Assembly: GCF_014695385.1 (NCBI RefSeq)
Contig: NZ_JACJOD010000028.1
Location: 1-64,000 of the forward strand
DNA: 64,000 nucleotides
Direction of reading: 5' to 3'
Source: Trichocoleus sp. FACHB-46
GTDB taxonomy: Bacteria > Cyanobacteriota > Cyanobacteriia > FACHB-46
Each line of letters starts with the position of its first letter. Within the stretch, counting starts at the first letter, position 1. The notes beneath the pieces are model-generated. The model worked only from the letters and a program-made list of their open reading frames with translations. It was not told where the DNA came from and did no database searches. Positions 321 to 44,018 of the stretch are shown here, piece after piece. A program made the translations under genes and the position numbers.

Positions 321-579
321 TTCCGTCGTAATCCGAAGCAATTGCTAAATAACGCATCGCCTTAATTAGATAGGTCCATTTATCCTAAGGTGCGGGATTG
401 CCTGGCTCATCTAACAGAAGCACTAATCTTAAAAGCAATTCACTAAGCTAGACTTGCGAGAGTTGGCCTACTGCATCGTGATGCAATCTGTAACTTAACT
501 ATGCAACTCGTGACAAAAATCCTGACGAAAGATAATTAGCTAACTATTGCTTAACTCAATCCTGTGCTAGCCTGTGGAA
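321..579. other. Intergenic region between IS end and rpsU leader
   Basis: No coding frame is convincing here. A 14-base palindrome (TGCATC, GT, GATGCA) lies at 472-485, of unknown meaning. The segment GTGCTAG at 564-570 lies at the same distance before the leader as TTATAGT does before rbp and may be part of a -10 element. Confidence 0.4.
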
Positions 580-661
580 AAGGATTATTTTCGGCTGTGT
601 AATTCGTTTTGTTGCAAGCGTTTCTCCGAATCTAACTCTCTGCACCTTTGATTCTGGAGAT
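580..661 (+). promoter_or_regulatory. Conserved rbp-type 5' leader in front of the lone rpsU
   Basis: This stretch aligns with the leader of the RNA-binding protein gene at 43295-43385. Shared blocks in order are AAGGATTATTTTCGGCT, TTCGTTTT, CAAG-GTTTCTCCG, ATCTAACT, CTCT-CAC, TTTGATT-TGGAGAT. The last block contains the ribosome binding site GGAGA, 12 bases before the rpsU ATG. Work on Anabaena rbp genes has tied their 5' untranslated region to cold regulation, so this is probably a cis-acting RNA element. Its presence without an rbp gene is unusual. Confidence 0.7.
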
Positions 662-672
662 GCCCCAACCGA

Positions 673-861
673 ATGGCCCAAATAATTCTAAATGAAAATG
701 AGGGAATTGAGGCAGCAATCCATCGATTCAAGCGGAAAGTTTCTAAGGCGGGAATTTTTCCAGATATGAAGAAGCATCGCCACTTCGAAACGCCTGGGGA
801 AAAACGTAAACGTAAATTAGTTGCTAAGCATAGACAGCGGAAAAAATATTCTCGTCACTGA
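673..861 (+). CDS. rpsU: 30S ribosomal protein S21, copy 1
   Basis: The 62-residue product is a component of the small ribosomal subunit, where S21 contacts the 3' end of 16S rRNA near the anti-Shine-Dalgarno region. The sequence has the usual S21 pattern: an N-terminal [21 protein letters not shown] block, then [14 protein letters not shown] and a very basic tail. A second, non-identical copy lies at 43827-44018. In cyanobacteria rpsU usually follows an rbp gene; here rbp is missing but its leader is present, so expression is probably cold-responsive. The start at ATG 673 follows GGAGA at 656-660. Identification is secure. Confidence 0.95.
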
Positions 862-43294: not shown

Positions 43295-43385
43295 AAGGAT
43301 TATTTTCGGCTTTGAAACCCCATTTCGTTTTACCGACAAGTGTTTCTCCGGATCTAACTTCTCTACACTCTTTGATTTTGGAGAT
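43295..43385 (+). promoter_or_regulatory. Structured 5' leader of rbp
   Basis: This leader is nearly the same as the one before rpsU at 580-661 (blocks AAGGATTATTTTCGGCT, TTCGTTTT, GTTTCTCCG-ATCTAACT, TTTGATTTTGGAGAT). It ends in the ribosome binding site GGAGA, 6 bases before the ATG. A conserved leader preserved in two loci argues for a functional RNA element; cold-regulated rbp genes in Anabaena are known to depend on their 5' untranslated region. Confidence 0.75.
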
Positions 43386-43390
43386 AATTC

Positions 43391-43708
43391 ATGTCGATTT
43401 ACGTTGGTAATCTGTCCTACCAGGTTACCCAAGAAGACCTCAAGCACGCGTTTGCAGAATACGGAACCGTCAATCGGGTTCAGCTACCCACTGACCGAGA
43501 AACAGGTCGGGTGCGGGGATTTGCTTTTGTGGAAATGGGAACAGAAGCAGAAGAAGCAGCTGCAATTGAAGCGCTTGACGGTGCAGAGTGGATGGGACGT
43601 GACCTCAAAGTGAATAAAGCCAAACCCCGTGAAGACCGAGGTTCGTCCGGCGGTGGCGGCGGTGGCGGTGGTTGGAGTAATAATCGCCGTAGCGATCGCC
43701 GCTATTAA
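43391..43708 (+). CDS. rbp: RRM RNA-binding protein, Rbp family
   Basis: The 105-residue protein has one RNA recognition motif (residues 1-80) with RNP2 IYVGNL at 3-8 and RNP1 RGFAFVEM at 42-49, followed by a glycine-rich tail (GGGGGGGGW) and an Arg/Asn-rich end. Cyanobacterial Rbp proteins bind single-stranded RNA and are induced by cold or affect mRNA stability and localisation. ATG 43391 follows GGAGATAATTC. The gene precedes rpsU, as in most cyanobacteria, but an intrinsic terminator stands between the two. Its leader is duplicated before another rpsU at 0.6 kb. Confidence 0.94.
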
Positions 43709-43826: not shown

Positions 43827-44018
43827 ATGACTCAAGTGGTTTTAGGTGAGAACGAAGGCATTGAATCTGCTTTGCGTCGGTTTAAGCGACAGGTTTCTAA
43901 AGCTGGCATCTTTCAGGATATGAAGAAGAAGCGGCACTTTGAGACCCCCTTGGAAAAAGAAAAGCGGAAAGCTTTAGCCAAACACAAACAGCGTAAACAA
44001 CGTTCTCACCAAAGATAA
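43827..44018 (+). CDS. rpsU: 30S ribosomal protein S21, copy 2
   Basis: The 63-residue S21 has the expected pattern ([45 protein letters not shown]) and differs from copy 1 at about a third of positions. The frame is open further upstream to 43629, overlapping the rbp end, but ATG 43827 lies 7 bases after GGGAGA and the upstream residues ([11 protein letters not shown]) are not ribosomal. It lies 118 bases after rbp behind a terminator hairpin. It may be the constitutive copy, with copy 1 regulated by the leader, or the reverse. Confidence 0.94.

Follow-up and report, generated by a model that had tools for sequence, protein, structure and literature searches.

The 5′ untranslated region (5′UTR) of cspA is a cold thermoswitch, in which access to the Shine-Dalgarno (SD) sequence is at stake and segments of the RNA are able to pair in two ways. 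Autogenous leaders of ribosomal protein genes, such as those in Rfam, hide the SD ahead of a ribosomal protein gene. In cyanobacteria, cold induction of the rbp genes has been traced to the 5′UTR since the 1990s, and no structure is catalogued for it in Rfam. Conserved cold-response boxes are known in these 5′UTRs, as stated in the passages of PMC9333190 that cite Maruyama 1999, and the cold-box leader is also traced to Sato and Nakamura 1998 and to Ehira et al. 2005 in PMC9333190 and PMC6091082. Here we analysed two leaders of this kind, one of them ahead of a lone rpsU gene, in a stretch of 64,000 nucleotides (the window) from Trichocoleus sp. FACHB-46. The host genome (G000) comprises 6.56 Mb and carries five rpsU and six RRM genes; its contig 28 opens with the 64 kb of the window.

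The lone rpsU (673..861, + strand, ATG at 673) encodes an S21 protein of 62 aa (Pfam PF01165, 70.8 bits). It is preceded by an rbp-type 5′ leader at 580..661 (+), which was recognised in alignments and by a covariance model match at 615-664 (E 7.5e-13). The initial annotation was correct in placing this leader directly ahead of rpsU, as there is no rbp between the two. An extended -10-like element TGTGCTAGCCT lies 6 nt 5′ of the leader (563..573, +). It is identical in two further species of the genus (G001 and G002), and the aligned position reads TGTGYTANNNT in many rbp leaders. The motif is weak, a loose TRTGNTA test being positive in 49 of 95 leaders, and a generic sigma-70 scan gave no match at the lone rpsU promoter. 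Transcription of the lone rpsU would start near position 580.

Within the lone leader, all on the + strand, the Box I core UUCGG (590..594, within TTTTCGG) is complementary to CCGAA of Box II, which makes an alternative pairing possible. Box II, UCUCCGAAUC (623..632), is the predicted 5′ arm of an SD-sequestering hairpin, as judged by covariation and swap tests, and is followed by the hairpin-loop motif CUCUGCA (638..644; consensus CUCURCA), which is conserved and unpaired in our alignment A3. The 3′ arm GAUUCUGGAGA (650..660), the partner of Box II, holds the SD sequence GGAG (656-659). An ATG abutting the SD, also present in G001 and G002, opens a short out-of-frame ORF of 11 aa that overlaps the lone rpsU (660..695, +). 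This ORF is probably not translated because it lacks SD spacing. The SD-to-ATG spacing of the lone rpsU itself is 13 nt vs ~7 nt in rbp. Given this spacing and the ATG abutting the SD, translation may be weak and the S21 output modest.

Of the surroundings of the lone gene, the nearby pentapeptide-repeat gene (997-1374) is retained in the window. Upstream, a fragment of an IS1-family transposase (PF03400, 58.9 bits) occupies positions 1-297, and only the first codons (~326-357) are left of the HAD-hydrolase gene that lies 5′ of the lone rpsU in G001. Together, the hydrolase remnant and the transposase fragment would fit an IS-associated rearrangement at this end of the contig.

The second leader (43295..43385, +; covariance model match 43337-43388, E 1.6e-13) belongs to an rbp-rpsU operon. 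It stands directly 5′ of an rbp gene that encodes a single RRM with a Gly-rich tail (43391..43708, +; PF00076, RRM_1, 74.4 bits), and the operon rpsU (43827..44018, +; 63 aa, PF01165, 72.7 bits) lies 3′ of rbp. In the sequence of this leader, Box II is UCUCCGGAUC (43345..43354, +) and the SD arm is GAUUUUGGAGA (43374..43384, +). The two leaders had been described as sharing most of their bases in ordered blocks, and global alignment bore this out, with 72 of 81 aligned bases identical (88.9%). The alignment score of 50.5 compares with a shuffled mean of -3.0 (SD 4.0, maximum of 1000 shuffles 10.5), which corresponds to z ~13. The block AAGGATTATTTTCGGCT is common to both leaders (580-596 and 43295-43311), and so is GTTTCTCCG. 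The S21 coding sequences are indeed less alike than the leaders, with DNA identity of 132/186 (71%) and protein identity of 72%.

Ordered blocks recur in the upstream regions of rbp genes of the host and of other families. These are TTTTCGG (Box I), TCTCCGAATC (Box II), CTCTRCA, and GATTCTGGAG, which sits just 5′ of the start codon; the -10-like block is found in many of the aligned regions. In the lone leader, Box I, Box II, CUCURCA and the SD arm follow each other in the same order and spacing. By the description in the passages named above, we identify the element with the published leader that carries the "conserved boxes for cold response" in type I rbp genes of cyanobacteria. Even with the E limit relaxed to 5, Rfam gave no family match within this stretch. 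The copy at 43295-43385 is directly 5′ of a single-RRM rbp; at 580-661 the gene in this place is rpsU, and we class this copy as derived from the leader rather than as an rbp leader proper. In the lone rpsU, an established regulatory leader is joined to a gene that is new for it, and we propose a new mechanism for this leader.

To describe how exclusive the leader is to rbp, a covariance model was built from 48 leaders. It scored the lone leader at 58.1 bits and the 43 kb rbp leader at 60.4 bits, values that are to be read with the training rows in mind, among which are the lone leader and, for the 43 kb rbp leader, its G001 orthologue. The host genome holds exactly five copies, four of them ahead of rbp genes and the fifth ahead of the lone rpsU, and the next match has an E value of 0.14. 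Across 59 genomes sampled from the class, the model matched in 37. The gene downstream was rbp in 60 of the 64 matches inspected, a lone rpsU in three and neither in one weak match. The leader thus normally belongs to rbp, as the initial annotation had it. The three lone-rpsU matches are orthologous loci of three species in the host genus. The weak match (L210, G008:C50:96462-96519, E 0.007) has no rbp or rpsU downstream and is probably due to chance.

A strict pattern running from Box II to the rpsU start was found in 3 of 390 genomes, all from the host genus (one genus of 160). A relaxed leader-rpsU pattern gave nine matches in 116 genomes, six of them outside the host genus. Three of these six were inspected and are without boxes, and the other three have no boxes in the matched stretch, judged from the matched sequence only. 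The operon rpsU copies are without this leader immediately upstream. The leader-rpsU fusion is real, and apparently genus-specific within the reach of these searches, which leaders diverged beyond the patterns could escape. A fourth leader-bearing rbp of the host genome (L010, G000:C28:142925, outside the window; model match C28:142864-142916) is without an adjacent rpsU. The sister species have four model matches each, and the L010 counterpart may be missing or diverged there.

We derived a pairing of Box II (UCUCCGAAUC) with GAUUCUGGAG, the SD region, and this predicted pairing was supported by several comparisons. In a partner-swap test of 62 non-redundant leaders, duplexes of Box II with the SD arm averaged -12.8 kcal/mol in the native combination vs -10.95 kcal/mol for swapped partners (native value reached in 0 of 10,000 permutations). 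In alignment A3 (48 leaders), 78.6% of the cells pair vs 74.0% after shuffling, and covariation is 0.149 vs 0.099 (0 of 500). Slid registers on the same alignment reached at most 57.7% paired cells and a covariation of 0.076. Covariation was strongest in the outer, sequence-variable pairs, at 0.313 vs 0.152 shuffled (0 of 500); because the leaders are phylogenetically related, all these shuffle counts are inflated and are not probabilities. When the outer helix was slid by -2, more cells paired (58% vs 48%) with less covariation. The inner pairs include replacements of C-G by U-A. RNAalifold without a given structure predicted only the four invariant core pairs, which are conserved by construction, as the presence of a CTCC/TTCC-like box close to the SD was a criterion in picking the leaders. 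The helix that includes the SD covaries in its flanking pairs, with the core SD pairs invariant. In the lone leader, the hairpin is present in the predicted minimum-energy fold at 10, 25 and 37°C.

Divergent leaders keep the hairpin with other sequence, as ACATCTCC with GGAGATGT (L089, L105, L119) or as GGCACTTC paired to GGAAGTGC (L125). In the Leptolyngbya/Phormidium-like rbp leaders L089, L105, L112, L119 and L126, Box I has been lost, and so has the CCGAA portion of Box II. This group keeps the SD hairpin in an altered sequence (TACATCTCC...GGAGATGTA). The persistence of the hairpin in the clade without Box I indicates that it does not require those boxes. Judged by these patterns of sequence change, the leader is most likely a cis-acting hairpin that sequesters the SD.

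Our preferred reading combines these results: the lone rpsU carries an rbp promoter and leader, its SD is hidden by a cis hairpin, and it is co-regulated with rbp. We consider this combination probable. Pairing of Box II with GAUUCUGGAGA, as supported by covariation, would hide the SD. The closed hairpin would keep translation low, and probably mRNA stability as well. Judging from the published cold regulation of rbp 5′UTRs, the hairpin would open in the cold, or through a factor acting at the single-stranded Box I and CUCURCA. The lone S21 would thereby be co-regulated with the rbp genes.

A protein acting in trans, perhaps Rbp itself, could instead bind the leader at Box I, the loop or the SD arm and control rbp together with the lone rpsU, with the hairpin as its platform. 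The unpaired motifs of the leader are strongly conserved, and the presence of Box I goes with that of Box II (81 leaders with both, 7 with neither and 2-3 mixed), most of the losses falling in one clade. In plants, the glycine-rich RRM protein AtGRP7 exerts autoregulation on the transcript that encodes it (PMC5663106). However, the conservation of the motifs could equally serve an RNA-RNA contact, and the clade devoid of Box I (L105, L112, L119) retains the SD hairpin in other sequence. Such control in trans is possible, although we hold it to be doubtful. The initial annotation had suggested a regulator of this kind, perhaps Rbp, that would set S21 levels at low temperature; our comparison of leaders favours the cis hairpin in the first place, on which a trans factor may act. 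In the longer, Nostoc-type rbp leaders (L066, L071, L073, L078 and similar), a near-repeat, GTATTGACAGGCTTTT and GTATTTACAGACTTTT, lies between Box I and Box II, possibly a duplicated binding site.

Next, we compared the lone locus among the three species. In G001, the lone rpsU is flanked by a divergent HAD-type hydrolase gene upstream and a pentapeptide-repeat gene downstream, and because these neighbours match, the loci are orthologous. Between G000 and G001, 3 of the 93 nt before the start codon differ vs 35 of 186 coding positions (Fisher p 1.6e-4). Between G001 and G002, promoter and leader are identical at 135 of 135 positions, and 7 coding sites differ. For the lone S21, dN/dS reaches about 0.32 (G000-G001) and 0.36 (G001-G002), whereas the operon S21 and the rbp genes stay at 0-0.05 (lone vs operon S21 copies, Fisher 4e-6 and 0.004). 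The Pfam S21 score of the lone copy is 70.8 bits in the window vs 34.8 bits in G001 and 38.2 bits in G002. Several conserved S21 residues are lost in these two species; almost all are present in the window copy. An uninterrupted lone frame is found in each of the three species, and the insertion in G002 is in frame. By these sequence comparisons, constraint acts on promoter and leader, whereas in two species it has relaxed or changed for the lone S21. Its decay argues that the protein matters little in G001 and G002, and weakens S21 dosage as the target that would have been preserved.

The same data bear on the view that the lone locus is mainly an RNA or a leftover, that is, a decoy for the factor of the rbp leaders or a pseudogene at an early stage, with a leader yet to decay. 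The loss of conserved residues and the halved Pfam score next to a fully identical promoter and leader in G001 and G002 would fit this view. An open frame in three species, an in-frame indel and a dN/dS of ~0.3, not 1, speak against it, as does the retention of nearly all S21 residues in the window copy, and we find it unlikely. Its more specific form, in which the locus would by now be a regulatory RNA whose leader titrates the factor controlling the rbp leaders while the S21 frame is being lost, appears distinctly improbable.

A two-state cold switch similar to that of cspA would have Box I (UUCGG) pair with CCGAA of Box II in the cold and free the SD. Complementarity between the two boxes is present in nearly all leaders, L101 carries a double change (TTTGG with CCAAA), and the predicted fold of the rbp leader on contig C13 of the host switches between 25 and 37°C. 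However, the alternative pairing is unfavourable by 9-11.5 kcal/mol in the lone leader and, averaged over 80 leaders, is the less stable of the two pairings and gains nothing in the cold (mean +4.0 kcal/mol at 5°C vs +3.1 kcal/mol at 37°C). We therefore regard the two-state switch as rather improbable. Its equilibrium form, through Box I and Box II, was not supported, as the folding of the 80 leaders showed no general cold shift. Possible candidates for opening the hairpin are a helicase, a protein such as Rbp, and kinetic effects while the RNA is being transcribed.

The 88.9% identity of the two leaders might suggest that one window locus was recently converted by the other, without selection. 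This is ruled out by the near-identical orthologous lone leaders of G001 and G002 (3/93 differences from the window copy) and is also at odds with the match of the lone leader to rbp leaders of other families (L052, L054, L067), which is at least as good as that to its partner in the same genome. Thus, of the initial proposal that the leader was kept by selection or by recent copying, the first part stands and the second falls, since the lone leader is nearly invariant across the genus while the coding sequence diverges. The lone S21 is closest to operon S21s from other families, at 77, 75 and 76% identity vs 72% to the operon copy of its own genome. Returning to the preferred reading of an rbp promoter and leader on rpsU, the lone locus would most simply be an old rbp-rpsU cassette minus rbp. 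In an ancestor of the genus, such a cassette would most likely have lost the rbp coding region, which would have brought the start of rpsU next to the SD region of rbp.

A covarying SD hairpin offers a concrete candidate mechanism for an old and poorly understood cold control. With rpsU in the place of rbp, nature has provided an experiment in which the leader can be viewed apart from rbp and from autoregulation by Rbp, and the fusion would link the supply of ribosomal protein S21 to the control exerted through rbp leaders. Like the autogenous leaders, the lone copy is an RNA leader ahead of a ribosomal protein gene, with the SD predicted to be hidden. Unlike them, the element belongs to rbp genes and has no Rfam match; across genomes, 60 of 64 matches precede rbp, and the tie to rpsU is confined to one genus. 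With cspA it shares the nature of a cold-type leader, an SD at stake and two possible pairings, but the fold with the free SD is not favoured at low temperature here, as far as equilibrium folding is concerned. The rbp cold-box leader is the same element as that in the window, but the lone copy directly precedes rpsU, and the pairing with the SD was derived here.
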